Below are positions 10,174-26,033 of a DNA stretch of 26,153 bases, in pieces (the stretch's first letter is position 1; every line of letters starts with the position of its first letter). A program made the translations under genes and the position numbers. The stretch covers positions 1 through 26,153 of the forward strand of contig CAJVZA010000021.1 of the NCBI GenBank assembly GCA_913009315.1, read 5' to 3'. This DNA comes from an uncultured Hippea sp. Lineage in GTDB: Bacteria > Campylobacterota_A > Desulfurellia > JAADFJ01. The notes under the pieces are model-generated. The model was given only the letters and a program-made list of their open reading frames with translations, was not told where the DNA came from and searched no databases.

Positions 10174-10256
10174 GCCTGCCTGTGCGGGCGAGTCGCACGC
10201 ACAGGCAGGCGGATTTGGATTTTCAATTTGAACGCTTAGAATTAATAGAGGTGTCC
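10174..10256 (+). repeat. Partial family B repeat with GC-rich palindrome
   Basis: A perfect 13-bp inverted repeat (GCCTGCCTGTGCG at 10174-10186, its complement at 10198-10210) forms a strong hairpin with an 11-nt loop. It is followed by GGATTTTCAATTTGAACG, then CTTAGAATTAATAGAGGTG and TCCTA, the right end of the family B elements. The left end is missing. A related GCCTGCCTGCGCG lies inside the 14251 copy. It stands between the fdh promoter and the end of the Gate-domain genes, where the hairpin could limit read-through. Confidence 0.7.
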
Positions 10257-10290
10257 TATGCGCAGGAGTACCTCCGGTAGTTTTATTTAG

Positions 10291-14047: not shown

Positions 14048-14464
14048 TGAGACCACTGTACAATAAACAGATCCACAGAAGTCAAAAAAAGAGTAAGATT
14101 TAGAAATTAACAGAAATGCCCTATAGAATTTAATTTCCTGAAGATTGCCCTTTATTTGACTTCCCAGCGGGCTTTATGAGATTTCCCATATACTTGCGTT
14201 TTGCTTCTTTGAATTAACCCGTTAGTCCTTCAGAAGTTTGCCTTGTCTTCAGGGCAACTCTATTAATTCGTAAACGATCATCCTGGGTCCCGAATTCGCC
14301 TGCCTGCGCGTCGCAAATTTTGGCAATAGCTCTGCTATTACCTGCAATTTGCGTCTTGATGAGACGGAATTGGACTCTCAATTTGAAACGCTTAGAATTA
14401 ATAGAGTTGCCCTATAGAAAACCTCATGAAAAGCTGTGAATTTGCTTATTGTGCAGCGGTCTCA
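14048..14464 (+). mobile_element. Family A MITE-like element, complete, with nested family B element
   Basis: 417 bp, bounded by inverted repeats: TGAGACCACTGTACAATAA on the left and the complement of TGAGACCGCTGCACAATAA on the right, extending to about 30 bp with the flanking ATTCACAG-like bases. TAA stands directly outside both ends (14045-14047 and 14465-14467), consistent with a 3-bp target duplication. No open frame could encode a transposase, so it would depend on one supplied elsewhere. TAA targets with GAG-type ends resemble some IS5-family (IS1031-like) elements, an inference only. Without the nested element it would be about 255 bp. Confidence 0.85.
14251..14413 (+). mobile_element. 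Family B MITE-like element nested in family A
   Basis: 163 bp with perfect 19-bp inverted ends AGGGCAACTCTATTAATTC at 14251-14269 and its complement at 14395-14413. It splits a sequence that is continuous in the copy at 21-128 (TTGTCT followed by ATAGAAAAC). The interior holds GCCTGCCTGCGCG and a GGCAATAGC/GCTATTACC hairpin. It has no coding capacity. Confidence 0.8.
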
Positions 14465-16718: not shown

Positions 16719-18026
16719 ATGAAATACTTGATTATCGGCGCAGATGCGGCAGGACTTTCAGCGGCAAATAGAATTAGAAGCAAGACTGATGGAAAAATTA
16801 CCGTTATGGAAAAAGGAAGATTCATCTCTTATGCGGCATGCGGTATGCCGTATTTTATCGGAAATGAAATTGATAATTATGAGGCTTTGCTGGGAAGATC
16901 GGTCGAATATTTCAAAAAGAAAAATATTGACATACTCACTGAAACTGAAGCAGTAAAAATTGACCGGCTTAATAAAATTGTTTTTTGTCGAGGAAAAACA
17001 GATAAAATTGCTTATGATAAACTTTTGATAGCAACAGGCGCGGAGCCGTTTGTTCCGCAGATTTCAATCAGTTCAGAAAAGGTTTTCACACTTAAAACAA
17101 TTGACGACTCTATAAAAATTAAAAATTTTATCAAGAAAAATGCCCCAAAAAAAGTAACAATCATAGGGGCAGGCGCTATCGGAATTGAGATGGCTGAACA
17201 GTTTAACCGGATTGGATTGTCCGTCCTTATGATTGAGCGGCTTCCGCAAATTTTGCCGATTATCGACAGCGATATGGCAGAGACGATTCAAAACTATCTG
17301 ACAGAAATCGGAATAAGAATAAGAACCGAAACTTCGCTTCAGACAATCGAAGAATCAAAAAATATCAAGATAGTAACCGACAACGGGGAATTTGATACGG
17401 ATTTTGTTCTTCTTTCAGTCGGTGTAAAACCTTGCAGCAATTTGGCAAAATCATCCGGAATTAAACTTGGTTACAAAGGTGCAATAGCGGTTGACAGAAG
17501 CATGAAGACATCTGATGATGCAATTTATGCAGCCGGAGATTGCGCAGAAACCTATCACAAGTTGCTTGGAAACCGTTTTATTCCTCTTGGAACAACAGCA
17601 AACAAGCAGGGAAGGATTGCAGGCCTCGCAATGACCGGCATTGATGTCAAATTTGCAGGTGTGGTTGGAACTGCAATACTAAGATGCTTTGATATGGGCG
17701 TTGCAAGAAGCGGCATTGGAGTTGATCAAGCAGCACTGGAAAATATACCGGTTGCATCGGTAACAATAAAATCGGAAAGCAAAGCCCACTACTATCCGAC
17801 AACAAAAAAAGTGACTTTAAGAATCATATTTAAATCTGATGGAACAGTTGTGGGAGCGGAAATTATCGGAGGAGGAGTCGAGAGAATAAATCCGCTGGCA
17901 ATGGCAATAGCCCATTCGATGAAATTGGATGAACTATATAAACAGGATTTTGCCTACTCTCCTCCTTATTCGCCGGTGTGGGATCCTATTCTCGTTGCAG
18001 CTTATGAGGGAATGAAAAAGCTTTAA
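16719..18026 (+). CDS. CoA-disulfide reductase-like FAD/NAD(P) oxidoreductase
   Basis: 435 aa, the length of single-domain CoA-disulfide reductases and NADH oxidases. FAD-binding GADAAGLSAA (7-16), a single redox cysteine in SYAACGMPY (Cys41, equivalent to S. aureus CoADR Cys43), the NAD(P)-binding GAGAIGIEMAE near 149-159, the second FAD contact YAAGDCAE near 271-278 and the C-terminal dimerisation domain are all present. There is no C-terminal rhodanese domain. Members reduce CoA disulfides, polysulfide or O2; in an anaerobe, thiol homeostasis, peroxide/oxygen defence or sulfur reduction are options the sequence cannot separate. GCAGGAGG precedes the ATG. The stop TAA is also the target-site copy flanking a small family A element. 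Confidence 0.85.
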   Translation: MKYLIIGADAAGLSAANRIRSKTDGKITVMEKGRFISYAACGMPYFIGNEIDNYEALLGRSVEYFKKKNIDILTETEAVKIDRLNKIVFCRGKTDKIAYDKLLIATGAEPFVPQISISSEKVFTLKTIDDSIKIKNFIKKNAPKKVTIIGAGAIGIEMAEQFNRIGLSVLMIERLPQILPIIDSDMAETIQNYLTEIGIRIRTETSLQTIEESKNIKIVTDNGEFDTDFVLLSVGVKPCSNLAKSSGIKLGYKGAIAVDRSMKTSDDAIYAAGDCAETYHKLLGNRFIPLGTTANKQGRIAGLAMTGIDVKFAGVVGTAILRCFDMGVARSGIGVDQAALENIPVASVTIKSESKAHYYPTTKKVTLRIIFKSDGTVVGAEIIGGGVERINPLAMAIAHSMKLDELYKQDFAYSPPYSPVWDPILVAAYEGMKKL

Positions 18027-18105: not shown

Positions 18106-20463
18106 CTATTTGTACCGCTGTTTCAGAATAGCTCTGCAAAGTTTAGCTGCCGTTACCATATTTTTTAAAGACGGTATGACATCACGCCATTGTCTCGTCT
18201 TGAGACCGCAATCCGGATTGACCCAAAGAAGTTTTATCGGCACAACATTTGACGCCTTTTTAATAAGATCTGCTATCTCGCTTACGCTTGGTATTCTCGG
18301 GGAATGAACATCATAAACACCGGGGCCTATCTCATTAGGATATTTAAAACTTCTAAATGAGTCCAATAGTTCCATATTTGATCGTGACGCCTCTATGGAT
18401 ATAACATCTGCGTCCATATCCGCTATAAATTTTATAATATCATTAAATTCGCTGTAGCACATATGAGTGTGAATCTGGGTAGCATCAGTCACACCATTAG
18501 CGGCAAGTTTAAAACTGCCTACAGCCGACTTAAGGTACTTGCTCCATTGATTTTTCCTCAACGGTAAGCCTTCCCGTAATGCCGGTTCATCTATCTGAAT
18601 CATCTTTATTCCGGCCTTTTCCAGATCCAGCACCTCGTCTCGAATTGCCAGTGCAATTTGAGCAGCAGTTTGATCCAGAGGCTGGTCGTTGCGCACAAAG
18701 CTCCACTGCAGCATTGTGTTCGGGCCGGTCAGCATTCCTTTGACGGGTTTGTCGGTCAGGGATTGAGCATATTCAGCCCATTTTACCGTCATTCGACATT
18801 TTCTTGAAATATCTCCATAAATGATAGGCGGTTTAACGCATCTGGTGCCGTAACTTCTAACCCATCCATTTTGAGTAAAAATAAAACCGTTTAGTTTATC
18901 GCTGAAATATTCAACCATGTCGCCCCGTTCGGGTTCACCATGAACAAACACGTCAAGTCCTATCTCTTTCTGAATCGAGATAATATATTTTATTTTATCT
19001 TTTATAAAATTCTCATATTCTTCTTTATCTATATCACCCTTTTTAAAATCGTGTCTAACTTTTCTTATTTCTTTAGTTTGAGGAAAAGATCCTATGGTAG
19101 TAGTGGGCAGTTCGGGAAGATTAAATATCTGACGTTGTTTTTCAGCTCTGACGGCATACGGTGATTTTCTGCGCAAATCCTTATCAGCAATACTGCTACA
19201 TCTGTCTCTCACGATTTGATTATTCACTGAAAAATGGTCTTTTCCGGATTTAATTGCCGCTCTATTGCGTTTTATAAGTCTATCTACATTCTCGTCAGTG
19301 CTGTCATTCAATATTTTAGATAATATGGATAGTTCGCTTGCCTTTTCTCTTGCAAATGAAAGTCGATTTCTTATTTTACCATCCATCTGATTTTCATATT
19401 TCACGCTTACCGGAACATACTCCAACGAAGAAGATGTGCTTATCATAATATTGTCCTTTCCGATAATAGAAGCAGTATCCGATAACAATTCTTTTGATGC
19501 CTCAAGATCATTTATCCATATATTCTGCCCGTCAACTATACCTATTGAGAGCATTTTACCCTTTCCTTTTATAGCATCGGCCGCCTCTTTAATCTCATTT
19601 GGTGCAGCCACCGCGTCAATATGAACAGCATCAATCGGCAAATTTGTAAAAGTTTCCAGATTGTCTCTTAAATCTCCAAAATAGTTCGCAACCATAATTT
19701 TAGATTTTGAAACTTTACCAAGAATATCATATGCATACTCCAATTTATTGCAAATATTATCAGATAGATCCAGCGAAAAAACCGGTTCGTCAAGCTGTAT
19801 CCATTCAGCACCGAGCTCACCCAATCGTTTAATGACTGCCGCATAAACCGGAACAATTTTATCCAGAAGCCGTAAAATATCGAACGACTCGTTAGAATAA
19901 TTTTTGCTTAACATAAGATAGGTAACCGGACCCACCAAAACAGGCTTTATAAGAATACCGATCTCGCGTGCCTGCATAAATTCATCAAATATTTTGTTAG
20001 ACGATAGCCGGAAATTTGTATTTTTATCAAGTTCAGGAACAATGTAGTGATAGTTTGTGTTGAACCATTTTGTCATCTCGCATGGCTTTATGTCAGGTTT
20101 TCCTGTCATGCTTTTTCCTCTTGCCATCCTAAAATACAGGTCAAGGTCAATCATTGTTCCATTCCGGTCGAATCGATCGGGAATTGCCCCCAACATACAG
20201 CTCATATCGAGCATGCGGTCATACAGAGTAAAATCGTTGCCTGGAATCAGATCTATACCTATTTTCTTAAGCATTTTCCAATTTTTATTTTTAATGTCGC
20301 TGGCAGCAGTCAGCAATGCATTTTCAGTGAGCCCGCCGTACCAAAAAGATTCAATGGCCTTCTTCAGCTCTCTCTTATCCCCAATTCCGGGATAACCTAA
20401 AACATTAGTAATAATTTTACCTTTCGTGTCAGTACTATTATCTGACAGTGCATTTATGTACAT
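18106..20463 (-). CDS. metE: Cobalamin-independent methionine synthase
   Basis: 785 aa, full length for MetE, with two barrels. The N-terminal half starts VLGYPGIGDKRELKKA and has WIQLDEPVF. The C-terminal catalytic half starts near TTTIGSFPQT and has VHGEPERGDMVEYF, MIQIDEPALREG, and the zinc ligands His and Cys in IHTHMCYSEF, Glu in SIEASRS and the last Cys in VNPDCGLKTR. It transfers a methyl group from methyl-tetrahydropteroyl-triglutamate to homocysteine without B12. GGAG precedes the ATG, and the start overlaps the nrdG end by 26 bp. It is the last gene of a unit headed by a cobalamin riboswitch, the classic way metE is silenced when B12 is plentiful and MetH can work. Confidence 0.95.
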   Translation of the reverse strand: MYINALSDNSTDTKGKIITNVLGYPGIGDKRELKKAIESFWYGGLTENALLTAASDIKNKNWKMLKKIGIDLIPGNDFTLYDRMLDMSCMLGAIPDRFDRNGTMIDLDLYFRMARGKSMTGKPDIKPCEMTKWFNTNYHYIVPELDKNTNFRLSSNKIFDEFMQAREIGILIKPVLVGPVTYLMLSKNYSNESFDILRLLDKIVPVYAAVIKRLGELGAEWIQLDEPVFSLDLSDNICNKLEYAYDILGKVSKSKIMVANYFGDLRDNLETFTNLPIDAVHIDAVAAPNEIKEAADAIKGKGKMLSIGIVDGQNIWINDLEASKELLSDTASIIGKDNIMISTSSSLEYVPVSVKYENQMDGKIRNRLSFAREKASELSILSKILNDSTDENVDRLIKRNRAAIKSGKDHFSVNNQIVRDRCSSIADKDLRRKSPYAVRAEKQRQIFNLPELPTTTIGSFPQTKEIRKVRHDFKKGDIDKEEYENFIKDKIKYIISIQKEIGLDVFVHGEPERGDMVEYFSDKLNGFIFTQNGWVRSYGTRCVKPPIIYGDISRKCRMTVKWAEYAQSLTDKPVKGMLTGPNTMLQWSFVRNDQPLDQTAAQIALAIRDEVLDLEKAGIKMIQIDEPALREGLPLRKNQWSKYLKSAVGSFKLAANGVTDATQIHTHMCYSEFNDIIKFIADMDADVISIEASRSNMELLDSFRSFKYPNEIGPGVYDVHSPRIPSVSEIADLIKKASNVVPIKLLWVNPDCGLKTRQWRDVIPSLKNMVTAAKLCRAILKQRYK

Positions 20464-21121
20464 AATTTTTCTCCAATTCTACAGCTATCCTTTTCAATTC
20501 AGATTCCTGATAGCTGTTTTCGTTAATAAACAGCGGATCCAAAGTCTTTGTTGGAACAAACCTTTGCAAATACCAGATAGCAGCTCCAGATATTGTCTTT
20601 CCTATTTTTAGAATATCATCTTCAGACAGAAGCGATTTTACAACGGTTGTTCTGAATTCATAATTTACAGCTGATGAGATAATAATCTTTATACTCTTTT
20701 CTACCAGCATACTGCAATCGCCGCCAACCAGCTCGTTATATCGGTTAAGAGGCGTTTTTATATCCACTGCCGCATAATCAATCAATCTATCTTCGATCAG
20801 TTTTTCTAACATATCGGGATTACCGCCATTCGTATCCAGCTTTACCAAAAAACCAATTTTCTTAATCTCGGCTATAAACTTCGGCAGATCTTTTTGAATG
20901 GTCGGCTCACCCCCCGTAATTGAAACGGCGGTCAGTTTTCCTGTTCGTTGTTTTAAAAAGCTCAAGATTTTCTCTTCCGGAATAACAGGCGAGGTCATAT
21001 TTACCAGCTCCGGATTATGGCAGTACGGACATCTAAAATTGCATCCGGAACCAAAAACTATCGCTGAGATTTCACCCGGATAGTCGATTAGTGAAAATTT
21101 TTGAAACCCGCCTATTAACAT
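20438..21121 (-). CDS. nrdG: Anaerobic ribonucleotide reductase activating protein (radical SAM)
   Basis: 227 aa. The radical-SAM cluster motif CNFRCPYC (Cys27, Cys31, Cys34) is followed by the SAM-binding SITGGEPT and the LDTNGGNP segment. The start, GGFQKFSLIDYPGEISAIVF, is typical of the NrdG-type activases found with bacterial and archaeal NrdD. It cleaves SAM to place a glycyl radical on the reductase. Here the target glycine is in a separate small protein (21162-21335), whose gene ends 40 bp upstream. It overlaps metE by 26 bp, so the two are co-translated. Confidence 0.9.
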   Translation of the reverse strand: MLIGGFQKFSLIDYPGEISAIVFGSGCNFRCPYCHNPELVNMTSPVIPEEKILSFLKQRTGKLTAVSITGGEPTIQKDLPKFIAEIKKIGFLVKLDTNGGNPDMLEKLIEDRLIDYAAVDIKTPLNRYNELVGGDCSMLVEKSIKIIISSAVNYEFRTTVVKSLLSEDDILKIGKTISGAAIWYLQRFVPTKTLDPLFINENSYQESELKRIAVELEKNYVHKCTVR

Positions 21122-21161
21122 TATAAATACATGACCTCTATGACAATTGCAGTTTTCTTAA

Positions 21162-21335
21162 TTATTTCGCAAGATCAAAAGTTTTTCTCCTGTGAAATTC
21201 CTCTTTTTTGCCGATATTCCACTGACTGACCGGTCGAAGATACCCCACTACCCTTGAATAAACTTCGCATTTTACGCCTTTTATGTTACATTTTTCATTT
21301 TCCAATTCGCTAATTTCTGCATTAATATCTTTCAT
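21162..21335 (-). CDS. Separate glycyl-radical domain of class III ribonucleotide reductase (57 aa)
   Basis: 57 aa, too short for many gene finders. After a helical, charged start (MKDINAEISELENEK) it reads CEVYSRVVGYLRPVSQWN, then GKKEEFHRRKTF. This is the C-terminal NrdD motif, with RVVGY carrying the radical glycine (Gly31). The large nrdD protein encoded upstream ends without this motif, so this small protein must supply it. AGGAG lies eight to ten bases before the ATG, so it can be translated on its own. A family B element occupies most of the 184-bp gap to nrdD. Whether the split is ancestral or caused by that insertion is open. A functional reductase would need the two polypeptides to assemble. 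Confidence 0.85.
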   Translation of the reverse strand: MKDINAEISELENEKCNIKGVKCEVYSRVVGYLRPVSQWNIGKKEEFHRRKTFDLAK

Positions 21336-21357
21336 TTCTGTATCTCCTGTATGTATG

Positions 21358-21508
21358 ATATCTCTATTAATTCCAAACGTTCAAATTGAAAATCCTAATC
21401 CGTCGGCAGGGTGTAAACCCTGGCAGCAGCCCTGCGATTCTACCAGGATTTACAACGCAGAAGGAACCGGTTTGAGGCTGAGAATCGTTCATGAATTAAT
21501 ATAGTCAC
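21358..21508 (-). repeat. Family B MITE-like element between the two nrdD genes
   Basis: About 151 bp from TATCTCTATTAATTCC to GAATTAATATAGTCACC. The left end with CAAACGTTCAAATTGAAAATCC is nearly the complement of the family B end at 10214-10256. The interior holds a GGCAGGGTGTAAACCCTGGCAG hairpin-like sequence. It starts 11 bp downstream of the nrdD stop and ends 22 bp before the small gene's ATG. Confidence 0.7.
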
Positions 21509-21519
21509 CGTTTGTATTG

Positions 21520-23565
21520 TTAATCTTCGGCAATCGTTGATTTGTATGATTCGCTTTTTAATTTCTCAATTTTTCCTTCTACCTCCGCGACCTTTTCCTC
21601 TCTGCACTTTGGGCATTCATAATGGCTTCCGGCAATATATCCATGAACGGGACAAATAGAAAATGTTGGCGTAATAGTAACATAAGGTAACGAATAGTTC
21701 GCAAAAATTGTGCGTATAAGTGTTCTTATACTTCTGTAATCTGAAATTTCCTCACCTGCAAACAGATGAAGCACGGTTCCTCCGGTATATTTTGTCTGCA
21801 GACTATCCTGAAGATCTAACGCTTCAAAAACATCATCTGTAAGGTTCACCGGAAGCTGACTTGAATTTGTATAGTAAGGTCTATCTTTTTTGCCCGCTGT
21901 TATGATCTCTTTATATTTTTTTTTATCGATTAATGCCAGACGGTAGCTTGTTCCTTCTGCAGGTGTTGCCTCCAGATTGTAGAAGTTTCCTGTTTCCTTT
22001 TGGAACAACAGCAGCTTATTTCCCATAAAAGTCAAAACTCTGTTTGAAAACTCTTGTCCGATTTCAGACGCTATATTCTTGTTGAAGAGATTTAAGCAAG
22101 CCTCATTCATACCTACAAGCCCTATTGTAGAGAAATGATTATCCCAATATCTACCGAATCGCTTCTTCATGCTGCCAAGATAAAATTTTGTGTAGGGATA
22201 CAAGTCGCCGTCTGTATACCTTTCAAGCACTTTCCTTTTTATTTCAAGGCTCTCTTTGGCCAGTTCCATCAGATTGCCAAGTCTCACAAAAAATTCATCC
22301 TCGTCTTTTGATACATAGCCTATTCTCGGCATATTGATTGTTACAACACCTATCGAACCTGTCAGAGGATTCGCACCAAAAAGCCCTCCTCCTCTTTTTC
22401 TGAGATCTCTTGTGTCCAATCTTAACCTGCAGCACATGCTTCTTGCATCTTCAGGACTTATGTCCGAATTAATATAGTTTGTGAAATAAGGTATTCCATA
22501 TTTTGCAGTAGCCTCCCACAACGGTTCAAGATTTTTATTCTTCCAATCAAAATCTTTCGTTATGCTGTAGGTTGGAATTGGAAATGTAAATACCCGTCCG
22601 TCGGCATCACCTTCCGACATAACCTCCATAAATGCTTTGTTTAATAGATCCATCTCGCTTTGAAAGTCTGCATAAACGACATTCTGAAGTTTGCCTTCCA
22701 TTACCACTGACTGTTTTGACAGATACTCCGGAACTTTTAAATCCAGCGTCAAGTTTGTAAATGGCGTTTGGAATCCTACTCTTGTCGGAACATTAAGATT
22801 GAATACAAACTCCTGCAGCGCCTGCTTAATCTCACCGTAGCTTAACGCATCATGCGCTATAAACGGCGCCAAAAGTGTGTCGAAATTGGAAAATGCCTGA
22901 GCTCCGGCCGCTTCACCTTGAAGCGTAAAAAAGAAGTTTACTATCTGCCCGAGAGCAGTTCTGAAATGCCTTGCCGGATTACTTGCTACTTTGCCTGAAG
23001 CACCCCTGAATCCTTTGATAAGCAGATCCTGCAAGTCCCATCCGACGCAATATACAGAAAGCAGGTTAAGATCGTGTATATGAAAATCACCTTCAGTATG
23101 TGCTTTTCTTATCTCATCCGGATAGATTTTATTCAACCAGTATATTTTACTTATATAAGATGAGACATAGTTGTTGAGTCCCTGAAGAGAGAAGCTCATA
23201 TTGCTATTTTCGTTTACTTTCCAATCCAATTTCTGCAAATATTTATCAATCAGATCAACATCGGATTTTTCAACTATTTCTCTTATCTTTTTATGCTGAT
23301 CCCTGTAAACGATATAAGCTTTTGCGGTCTTCCTGTAAGGCGAACTAATCAGTACTTCCTCAACAATATCCTGTATCCCTTCTACGGTGGGGATTCTGCT
23401 TTTTGTGACGGACAGAGCAAGATTAATTACCCGTAAAGCTAATTTTTCAGCTTCTTCTTTTCCGAACTCACCTGTTGCAACGCCGGCTTTGACTATAGCA
23501 TCGGTTACTTTCGAAACATCAAAAAGGACAATACGTCCATCTCTTTTTTTGATCCGCTTGAACAT
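21520..23565 (-). CDS. nrdD: Class III anaerobic ribonucleoside-triphosphate reductase, catalytic part lacking the glycyl-radical domain
   Basis: 681 aa. An N-terminal ATP-cone (about 3-93, KRDGRIVLFDVSKVTDAIVKA-like) gives allosteric control. The catalytic barrel follows, with GDFHIHDLN (159-167), FNLNVPTR (255-262) and the finger-loop cysteines at 378-379 (RSMCCRLRLD). The C-terminal zinc-binding part has CPVHGYIAGSHYECPKC. It then ends in a helical tail (VAEVEGKIEKLKSES) with no RVxGY motif, so the radical glycine is not in this chain; it is in the 57-aa product downstream. GGAGGTG precedes the ATG. The gene heads the transcript controlled by the cobalamin riboswitch. It reduces ribonucleotides to deoxyribonucleotides in strict anaerobiosis; the reductant (formate or thioredoxin) is not settled. 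Confidence 0.93.
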   Translation of the reverse strand: MFKRIKKRDGRIVLFDVSKVTDAIVKAGVATGEFGKEEAEKLALRVINLALSVTKSRIPTVEGIQDIVEEVLISSPYRKTAKAYIVYRDQHKKIREIVEKSDVDLIDKYLQKLDWKVNENSNMSFSLQGLNNYVSSYISKIYWLNKIYPDEIRKAHTEGDFHIHDLNLLSVYCVGWDLQDLLIKGFRGASGKVASNPARHFRTALGQIVNFFFTLQGEAAGAQAFSNFDTLLAPFIAHDALSYGEIKQALQEFVFNLNVPTRVGFQTPFTNLTLDLKVPEYLSKQSVVMEGKLQNVVYADFQSEMDLLNKAFMEVMSEGDADGRVFTFPIPTYSITKDFDWKNKNLEPLWEATAKYGIPYFTNYINSDISPEDARSMCCRLRLDTRDLRKRGGGLFGANPLTGSIGVVTINMPRIGYVSKDEDEFFVRLGNLMELAKESLEIKRKVLERYTDGDLYPYTKFYLGSMKKRFGRYWDNHFSTIGLVGMNEACLNLFNKNIASEIGQEFSNRVLTFMGNKLLLFQKETGNFYNLEATPAEGTSYRLALIDKKKYKEIITAGKKDRPYYTNSSQLPVNLTDDVFEALDLQDSLQTKYTGGTVLHLFAGEEISDYRSIRTLIRTIFANYSLPYVTITPTFSICPVHGYIAGSHYECPKCREEKVAEVEGKIEKLKSESYKSTIAED

Positions 23566-23635
23566 CTATCGGCACCTCCATTTGATATCAATTTGGCAGA
23601 AATAACAAAATAATAAATGGAAAACAGATAAAGAA

Positions 23636-23659
23636 TCAACCAAAACCTGGAAAAACCAT
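23636..23659 (-). other. Possible 7-codon upstream reading frame in the riboswitch leader
   Basis: Between the riboswitch and nrdD, GGGAGG is followed after four bases by ATG and six more codons to TGA (MVFPGFG). The ribosome binding site is as good as that of nrdD. It could be a leader peptide or chance. Confidence 0.2.
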
Positions 23660-23680
23660 ACTGACCTCCCGTCATAAAAG

Positions 23681-23822
23681 TTTATCAGGTAAGTCTTCTG
23701 GCTCGGCTTCATCCTACTTCCCTGCCTTCCCGGAAATTCCAGTGGTGTTATAGGGGTTCGTCAGCCATACAGCAGCGGGAGCTGCGCCGGATTTTCACCG
23801 GACTTCCTTTGAACCTGATAAA
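23681..23822 (-). promoter_or_regulatory. Cobalamin riboswitch
   Basis: Read on the minus strand, a closing helix (ACCTGATAAA complement pair at 23813-23822 and 23681-23690) encloses the conserved cobalamin-riboswitch core: AAGTCCGGTGAAAATCCGG, GCAGCTCCCGCTGCTGTA, GGAAGGCAGGGAAGTAGGATG, then AAGCCGAGCCAGAAGACTTACC. These are the B12-box and flanking helices. It should bind adenosylcobalamin or a relative and turn the downstream genes (nrdD, small nrdD, nrdG, metE) off. The 115-nt stretch to nrdD has no obvious intrinsic terminator, so control may be translational. Confidence 0.93.
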
Positions 23823-23830
23823 AGCAGACT

Positions 23831-23854
23831 ATTATAAATCTTTCTTTTTGTCAA
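23831..23854 (-). promoter_or_regulatory. Candidate promoter upstream of the cobalamin riboswitch
   Basis: A perfect TATAAT (23836-23831) lies so that transcription would begin at about 23824, right at the riboswitch 5' helix. A perfect TTGACA (23854-23849) is only 12 bases upstream, too close for a normal pair, so the -35 contact is unclear. Confidence 0.45.
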
Positions 23855-24118: not shown

Positions 24119-24151
24119 TGTAAATAAGTTGCAAATATGGAGGCAAAAACC

Positions 24152-25462
24152 ATGATAATAAATTTTTCGGTAAAGAATTTCTATTCGATAAAAGACCGGG
24201 TTACGCTTTCTTTTGAGGCTGCAAAATCAAATGATTTAGAAGATTACTATGTTATACAGCCTATAAAGGGACTGCGACTTTTAAAATTAGGGCTTATTTA
24301 TGGAGCAAACGCTTCAGGCAAAACAACTGTTCTGCAAGCTCTTGATTTTTTAAGAGATTTGGTACTGAAGCCTTTTGTAAAGAAAACAGAGATCTTTAAC
24401 TTTGAACCTTTCTTGTTTGATACAATAAGTAAAAATCATAATACCGTTTTTTCATTGAAGTTTATTCAAAATAAGGTGAAATACGCTTATGAAATAGAGT
24501 TAAACAAAAAAGCAATAGTTAGGGAAAGTTTGTATTTCCACAAGCCGAATAAAGCTCTTGTATATAGTAGGTCAACCGATGTTAAAAAACAATTGACGGA
24601 GATTACTTTTGGATCAAAAGTAAAAATTAGCAAAGAGAGTAAATCTGCTTTGATTGGAAACACATTATGGAATAATACGGTTTTGGGCGGGTATTTAAAA
24701 ACGAACTTTGAATCAACTGAATTGCAGGATGTTGTCAACTGGTTTAATAATAAATTGAAACCGATAATTGAACCAGGAACAGATTTGGTTTCTTTTGTTT
24801 CCGATTGGATAGAAAAAAAAGAAATAAAAAAAAGAAATGTTGTTGAGATACTTAAAAAAGCCGATTTTGGTATTTCCGATATTATTATAAAAGATCAAAG
24901 CATAGAACTTACTAAAGAGTTACTCAATTTTATAACTAAAGATTCAAATTTTTCTTATGAAGAAATTGGTAAGATAAAAGAATCCAAAAAAATAGAAACC
25001 CTGGAGATATTATTACAACATACAATTGGTAAAGACAATTATACGTTGCCCATAGAATATGAATCTGCCGGCACAAAACGGTACTATGAGTTTAGCGGAA
25101 TATTAAGTCTTATTATCAACGAAAAAGGTATTCTGCTAATTGATGAGCTGGAGTCTTCACTTCATCCCGATTTAGTAAAACATTTTTTACTTACTTTTTT
25201 GGTAAACTCAAAAGAGTCCCAATTGATAACAACAACTCACCACAGGGAACTTCTTATGGAAAAAGATATATTGAGAAAAGATGCAATATGGTTTACCGAA
25301 AGAAAAGAAGACTGTTCAACGGATTTGTTTTCTTTAACAGACTTTGATTCTTCTGTTATCAGAAATACAAGCTCAATTTACAATGCTTATAAAATAGGCA
25401 AGCTCGGGGCGGCACCGAACTTAAACGATTACTATATCGAGTTCGAAGATGACAAGAATTGA
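24152..25462 (+). CDS. AAA/ABC-type ATPase of a RloA/AbiLi-like defence pair
   Basis: 436 aa from ATG 24152. It begins MIINFSVKNFYSIKDRVTLSFEA, the usual opening of AAA_15/AAA_21 (SMC/RecF-like) ATPases. Walker A GANASGKT comes early, ESAGTKRYYEFSG serves as the signature motif, Walker B is ILLIDELESSLHP, and the switch histidine is in TTTHHRELL. An upstream in-frame ATG at 24137 exists, but it overlaps the ribosome binding site GGAGG (24139-24143), which sits eight bases before ATG 24152. The gene overlaps the RloB gene by 14 bp. ATPases of this kind are the sensor/regulator half of two-gene phage-defence modules (RloAB, AbiL, PARIS-like). The trigger is unknown. Confidence 0.85.
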   Translation: MIINFSVKNFYSIKDRVTLSFEAAKSNDLEDYYVIQPIKGLRLLKLGLIYGANASGKTTVLQALDFLRDLVLKPFVKKTEIFNFEPFLFDTISKNHNTVFSLKFIQNKVKYAYEIELNKKAIVRESLYFHKPNKALVYSRSTDVKKQLTEITFGSKVKISKESKSALIGNTLWNNTVLGGYLKTNFESTELQDVVNWFNNKLKPIIEPGTDLVSFVSDWIEKKEIKKRNVVEILKKADFGISDIIIKDQSIELTKELLNFITKDSNFSYEEIGKIKESKKIETLEILLQHTIGKDNYTLPIEYESAGTKRYYEFSGILSLIINEKGILLIDELESSLHPDLVKHFLLTFLVNSKESQLITTTHHRELLMEKDILRKDAIWFTERKEDCSTDLFSLTDFDSSVIRNTSSIYNAYKIGKLGAAPNLNDYYIEFEDDKN

Positions 25463-26033
25463 GAACAAACGGAAGCGGAGAGTTAAAAAATCTTATTCCA
25501 TAATAGTAGATGGACAGACTGAAATTTGGTATTTGCAGTTAATGAAAGAATTCGAAGAACTTCCAAGAATTGATATCAAACCGGAACTGCCGAAAAATAA
25601 AAAGTTAAAAGAATTATTTGAATTGGCAAAAAATAATGCTCAAATATATGATAAGGTCATTTGGTTATTAGACCTTGATGTGATTATTGAAAATGATAAA
25701 TTCGAAGAGTTTAAAAAATATGTAAAACAATTAAAGAAAAATAACAACGCAACGATTTTGGTTAACAACCCATGTCTAGAGTTTTGGTTTTTATTACATT
25801 TCAAAGAAACTAGTAAATTATTTTCAGGATGCAGCAATGTAATTTCAGAATTAAAAAAATGCGGTAGATTGGAAAATTACGAGAAATCAGAAAAATACTA
25901 CAAATATGCCAAGAATGATATTTATGCAAAATTAAAACCGTTTCAAAATACTGCAAATGAGAATGCAAAAAAACTCGGCAACCTTAATGTTAATAATAGT
26001 AAATCCGCAAAAGCTGAAATTTATGAATTATGA
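25449..26033 (+). CDS. RloB-family (TOPRIM-like) protein, likely defence effector
   Basis: 194 aa, cytosolic and Lys-rich. RloB landmarks are SIIVDGQTEIWYLQLM (about 17-32), where the family's first acidic residue is Asp rather than the usual Glu in an EGxTE-like motif; WLLDLDVI (the DxD metal-binding pair); and NPCLEFWFLLHF. These fit a TOPRIM-like nuclease fold. Paired with an overlapping ATPase, it resembles RloA-RloB and AbiLi-AbiLii abortive-infection systems, where the RloB-like partner is thought to be the toxic nuclease restrained by the ATPase. The stop codon TGA is the first three bases of a family A element, so that insertion may have trimmed or replaced the original C-terminus. 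The family name is fairly sure; the activity is inferred. Confidence 0.8.
   Translation: MTRIENKRKRRVKKSYSIIVDGQTEIWYLQLMKEFEELPRIDIKPELPKNKKLKELFELAKNNAQIYDKVIWLLDLDVIIENDKFEEFKKYVKQLKKNNNATILVNNPCLEFWFLLHFKETSKLFSGCSNVISELKKCGRLENYEKSEKYYKYAKNDIYAKLKPFQNTANENAKKLGNLNVNNSKSAKAEIYEL

Follow-up and report, generated by a model that had tools for sequence, protein, structure and literature searches.

An operon on the minus strand of contig 21 of an uncultured Hippea sp. genome (CAJVZA010000021.1, 26,153 nucleotides (nt) long and analysed as a whole, hereafter the window; genome designated G000) very probably spares vitamin B12, a B12-free class III ribonucleotide reductase (RNR) and the methionine synthase MetE being placed as backups under one cobalamin riboswitch. 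We further propose, tentatively and with confidence that falls a little short of even, that this riboswitch acts on a leader open reading frame (ORF) of 7-11 codons that licenses the distant nrdD start, and that the reductase is a two-chain enzyme whose glycyl radical resides on a small protein of its own; such a fission would have happened independently in at least two phyla.

The assembly of G000 comprises 1.74 Mb in 96 contigs (completeness 87.63, contamination 0.02). In the window the riboswitch is followed by nrdD, a gene for a 57-residue glycyl-radical protein, nrdG and metE; 105 nt separate the aptamer from nrdD, 184 nt nrdD from the glycyl-radical gene and 40 nt the latter from nrdG, while the last 26 nt of nrdG are shared with metE. 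A preliminary description, made from the letters of the window, had proposed this closely spaced, single-strand order with a detached glycyl-radical gene behind a cobalamin riboswitch, and both the order and the small gene are borne out. The riboswitch (23671–23833, minus strand, as for all operon features below) is matched by the covariance model RF00174 over its full length (model positions 1–189 of 189) with 99.9 bits and an E-value of 3.7e-24, the gathering score being 31.5 bits. Loop L5 (CUCCC, 23777–23781) is complementary to the GGGAG of loop L13, and judged by sequence a kissing loop and a P13 expression platform are present. The P13 hairpin (23662–23674), which bears a Shine-Dalgarno (SD) sequence in its loop, has undergone paired changes among the relatives in our panel of 61 genomes: it reads TGAC-GGGAG-GTCA in G000 and its genus mate G001 (the other genus mate is G002) and GAAC-GGGAG-GTTC in all other leaders, two of four pairs thus being altered on both sides. 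L5 matches L13 exactly in the window and reads CCCCC, with one mismatch, in the other leaders.

MetE (18106–20463) exceeds the cut-offs of NF003556 (1090.9 bits) and TIGR01371 (1061.8 bits), contains both Meth_synt domains (PF08267 and PF01717) and aligns at the HTHMC and NPDCG motifs, as a B12-independent methionine synthase. NrdG (20438–21121), the radical S-adenosylmethionine (SAM) activase, scores 218.9 bits against TIGR02495 (NrdG2), over the cut-off, and has the radical SAM domain PF04055. The B12-dependent partners predicted for them, NrdJ and MetH, are both encoded in the genome. A single class II NrdJ of 714 residues (NF006417, 1046.6 bits; TIGR02504, 735 bits; both over cut-off) is the only PF02867 match in this 88%-complete assembly, in which no class I large subunit was found, and the one B12-binding_2 protein is an 815-residue MetH with homocysteine, folate and cobalamin modules. 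A domain search finds no PF02965 reactivation domain in this MetH, and because that domain is absent its best match, TIGR02082, stays under the cut-off.

Cobalamin uptake genes, for which the preliminary description had proposed a search, lie behind a second riboswitch of G000 (92 bits, contig C16) in a run that we read as btuB-btuF-btuD-btuC-cobA, for uptake and adenosylation; btuB, btuF, btuD and btuC score below the model cut-offs and are named from best matches and order. A third RF00174 match (C18:10326-10450) reaches 26.5 bits, under the cut-off, has no long gene close downstream and was not counted. cobT-, cobS- and cobQ-like genes are found on another G000 contig, and a profile search found no CbiD in G000 or its two genus mates. 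Given these uptake and salvage genes and the missing CbiD, the cell probably imports and finishes corrinoids, and would need backups when the supply fails. Those predictions of the preliminary description that could be checked were all borne out, and its interpretation is supported.

In the mechanism that we propose, adenosylcobalamin, when plentiful, would bind the aptamer, L5 would pair with L13 and hide the SD, and the message would be off; deoxyribonucleotides and methionine would then come from NrdJ and MetH, supplied with imported B12. Under B12 shortage the switch would open, and NrdD, the glycyl-radical protein and NrdG, together with MetE, would be made. We infer the OFF direction of the switch and co-transcription through metE; a scan of the window found no strong intrinsic terminator between the operon genes (six weak matches against 4.5 expected).

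In families f1 and f3 of the Hippea class, 16 genomes, G000 among them, have an assembled nrdD start, and the riboswitch stands before nrdD in every one; the link is therefore not a matter of chance. Three genomes of family f2 (95-100% complete) have no RF00174, PF02867, B12-binding_2 or CobS match and retain NrdD and MetE: where B12 use has been lost, the switch has been lost and the B12-free enzymes remain. The opposite is seen in G002, in which nrdD, metE and a B12 riboswitch were not found and NrdJ, B12-binding_2 and CobS matches are present. Among 80 named nrdD loci, two that are not from Hippea (L203 and L213) have a riboswitch directly upstream. G060 was considered as a further case and rejected, its riboswitch and nrdD being near opposite ends of a contig and ~40 kb apart if that contig is circular.

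In each of the 16 leaders the GGGAGG of L13 is the SD not of nrdD but of an ATG-initiated leader ORF of 7-11 codons, which in the window encodes MVFPGFG (seven codons and a stop, 23636–23659); in dinucleotide shuffles of a leader a comparable ORF turns up 1-7% of the time. The nrdD start has an SD of its own (TGGAGG, 23575–23580, in the window) and is found 35-70 nt past the leader ORF stop, or 229 nt past it in G001. In the btuB riboswitches of G000 and G001 the SD at the equivalent place serves btuB directly, and the leader ORF is thus a feature of the nrdD arrangement. Since the L13 SD belongs to the leader ORF, it is this SD that the riboswitch can hide, and another step must relay the signal to nrdD. 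We suggest that translation of the leader ORF provides that step, by displacing an anti-SD, through reinitiation or by keeping Rho from terminating the transcript. Three relatives of the Hippea class, G009, G004 and G008 (L105, L106 and L109), likewise have a leader ORF, of 12-14 codons, after their second riboswitch; it overlaps or abuts the start of a cbiA-like gene.

Folding of the leaders suggests that the nrdD SD is masked by a stretch of pyrimidines located within the leader ORF or after it. In the window a putative anti-SD, TTTTCCATTT (23615–23624), is predicted to pair with AAATGGAGG, with moderate support. Masking the ORF plus 12 nt cuts the cost of opening the nrdD SD more than it does in shuffles (mean z 1.35 over 15 leaders), and the effect is clearest in G023, G011, G000, G014 and G024. 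Two results speak against such a relay: folding the leaders of G010, G012, G016 and G020 shows no masking of the nrdD SD, and covering the leader ORF in the window removes only about half of the masking. The relay step is for these reasons uncertain and, as the leader genomes are related and not independent, the folding support for it is suggestive only.

Two other accounts of the leader deserve consideration. A plain class I riboswitch could act directly on nrdD, through the SD of nrdD or through the transcript, with the leader ORF incidental. In its favour, the first gene is the described target of most B12 riboswitches, and is so in the btuB leaders of G000 and G001, and in four relatives the nrdD SD is open with no anti-SD; yet the L13 SD lies 80-100 nt from nrdD with an initiated ORF right behind it in every leader, and the window scan found no intrinsic terminator between the aptamer and the nrdD start. 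We regard direct action as rather unlikely. Alternatively, B12 could expose an untranslated leader to Rho, which would terminate before nrdD. The leaders of several Hippea-class relatives are C-rich and G-poor after the ORF, and riboswitches that inhibit translation can thereby favour termination by Rho (PMC11260477), but the leader in the window has nearly equal G and C and no C-over-G bias, and a relay through Rho seems less likely still.

The class III RNR itself is divided between two genes. NrdD (21520–23565, 681 residues) is matched by NF006126 (1044.7 bits), TIGR02487 and PF13597 (599 bits), and possesses the NRDD domain (PF13597), an ATP-cone (PF03477), the MCCR finger loop (SMCCR) and the C-terminal Cys region; Cys378, Cys379, Cys638, Cys651 and Cys654 are invariant among 23 aligned NrdD sequences. 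The chain ends just before the glycyl-radical loop, which a class III RNR would be expected to carry in the same chain. Instead the loop, RVVGYLRP, is found on the separate 57-residue ORF (21162–21335, motif CEVYSRVVGYLRP), which has its own SD (GGAG), lies in a frame different from that of nrdD and matches the final positions of the NrdD models (PF13597 522–562 of 562, E-value 9e-11). A homologous ORF follows nrdD in relatives: the loop has a gene to itself in the f3 genomes and one f2 genome, and in G011 and G005 it is fused, in the latter through a longer linker. We propose that NrdD works as a two-chain enzyme, NrdG installing the glycyl radical on the 57-residue protein. In a structure model this protein has an N-terminal helix (mean pLDDT, the predicted local distance difference test score, 66). 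The idea that complementary helices join the two NrdD pieces is not supported, the NrdD tail (residues 658–681) having pLDDT values below 50. The nrdD genes of G005, G007 and G009 (L068, L069 and L071) contain large in-frame insertions that resemble inteins, near residues 173, 230 and 267 in G005 (a 1866-residue frame) and near 267 in the others.

That the division reflects a frameshift or an assembly error, or that a functional NrdD has been lost, is hardly credible. The genome is a draft, and the gap between nrdD and the glycyl-radical gene, wider in the window, contains one copy of a dispersed repeat (21354–21407), but the same two genes, with the glycyl motif conserved and a start of its own for the small gene, are present in f3 relatives, some of them complete genomes, and the arrangement recurs in Elusimicrobiota. 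The repeat (CGGATTTGGATTTTCAATTTGAACGCTTAGAATTAATAGAG..., ~45-55 nt) has tens of full or partial copies genome-wide, those in the window being at 21354–21407, 10207–10259, 14362–14419 and 14243–14269.

On Elusimicrobiota contigs (L154, L157, L159, L163, L168-L170, L179, L180 and L208) the glycyl loop is likewise detached, and no B12 box is seen upstream. A 104-row tree places the split groups of the Hippea class and of Elusimicrobiota apart, and by its well-supported branches the split/fused label needs at least six changes; the tree was built by a quick method, and among the rows counted as fused are a few in which no glycyl motif is visible (for example L018 and L023), as well as L207, whose contig breaks off within nrdD and which has that label for this reason only. 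From these sequences, the same NrdD fission appears to have arisen separately in Elusimicrobiota. A literature search for a split NrdD found none, a weak negative as many journals lie outside its coverage.

The coupling to metE is less widely shared. A separate metE promoter had been named as an observation that would tell against a single operon, and the overlap of nrdG and metE leaves no intergenic room for one. Control of metE from a promoter within nrdG, its place in the operon being accidental, is in our view improbable. In its favour, most relatives have no metE at this place, and weak promoter-like matches are scattered throughout the window, in numbers similar to those of shuffles; against it stand the overlap of the two genes and the fact that metE is itself a usual target of B12 riboswitches (as in G015, where a separate riboswitch precedes metE, and in G041). 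Furthermore, the distant genome G034, outside the class, places the same genes behind one riboswitch in the reverse order, riboswitch-metE-nrdG-nrdD, with genes overlapping or abutting. The coupling of both backups to one switch has, on the evidence of this operon, arisen more than once, and the preliminary claim that a transcript shared by class III RNR and metE is unusual holds in that it is rare, but not in the sense of unique. The NrdD of G034 is itself in two ORFs of 514 and 177 residues with abutting stop and start (L216:5041-7120), cut at a site different from that in the window. Elsewhere, the order is metE-nrdD-nrdG in two genomes of family f4, where the stretch examined contains no riboswitch, and metE comes after nrdD on an Endomicrobia contig.

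Several observations count against the reading as a B12-sparing operon. Among the f1 and f3 genomes metE follows nrdG only in G000, and the operons of most relatives are without it; within the genus, G001 is cut by a contig end and G002 has neither nrdD nor metE. The RNR genes neighbouring the G034 operon read, from their sequence, as class I NrdA and NrdB and not as NrdJ, and the RNR half of the logic is therefore not universal. Finally, the absences of CbiD and of a class I RNR from G000 are provisional, since the assembly is 88% complete.

The preliminary description had also called a class III RNR as the B12-controlled backup unusual, and here it is contradicted by the literature. A 2004 study reports a B12 element before nrdDG in Desulfovibrio vulgaris and Desulfuromonas, with NrdJ as the B12-replete isozyme, and cites an earlier description covering both RNR and methionine synthase (PMC545781). 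These systems share with the window the riboswitch before class III nrdDG, the class II NrdJ and the isozyme-replacement argument, but their operon is without metE and the passages on them mention neither a leader ORF nor a split NrdD (PMC545781). In Propionibacterium acnes, cobalamin riboswitches precede nrdDG and nrdAB, and class III RNR backs up NrdJ as in the window; the operons there are separate, however, and metE is not mentioned (PMC3848588). Chlorobium has cobalamin riboswitches on btuB, metE and nrdD, the same three kinds of target as in G000, but with one riboswitch each for metE and nrdD where the window has a shared one (PMC8620254).

The leader-ORF relay has a precedent in principle in Mycobacterium tuberculosis, where expression of PPE2 strictly depends on translation of a riboswitch-controlled upstream ORF (uORF) (PMC11260477). 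There, too, it is a short ORF whose SD is masked by the riboswitch, but the stop of the ppe2 uORF overlaps the start of the gene, which is translated by termination-reinitiation (PMC11260477), whereas the nrdD start of the Hippea class lies 35-229 nt beyond and has its own SD. RNR catalytic chains made as two polypeptides are likewise on record, Pseudomonas aeruginosa NrdJa/NrdJb and phage Aeh1 NrdA being reviewed as split RNRs (PMC3267527); these belong to class II and class I, respectively, whereas in the window a class III chain is divided and the radical-bearing loop is a separate 57-residue protein. The regulatory logic is already known; the leader ORF and a radical loop supplied in trans could not be matched to any class III system that has been described, and both the leader gene and the two-piece enzyme look new.

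The operon is flanked by a convergent gene (16719–18026, plus strand) on one side and by a divergent gene, from 24137 (plus strand), on the other. A -10-like box, TATAAT (23831–23836, minus strand), lies directly before aptamer stem P1 and shares three bases with the start of the Rfam match; it is a consensus match only. The divergent stretch (24137–26033, plus strand) encodes an AAA_21 ATPase and then an RloB-family protein, possibly a defence pair.

A glycyl-radical chain that naturally acts in trans would mean that two purified proteins could be mixed to probe how NrdG recognizes its target and how the loop docks. If the relay is real, the Hippea class provides a further case, besides M. 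tuberculosis ppe2, of a B12 riboswitch that works through a translated short ORF, here class-wide. In G000 a single vitamin sensor would govern the supply of both DNA precursors and methionine, and such a coupling has arisen more than once, in opposite gene orders.

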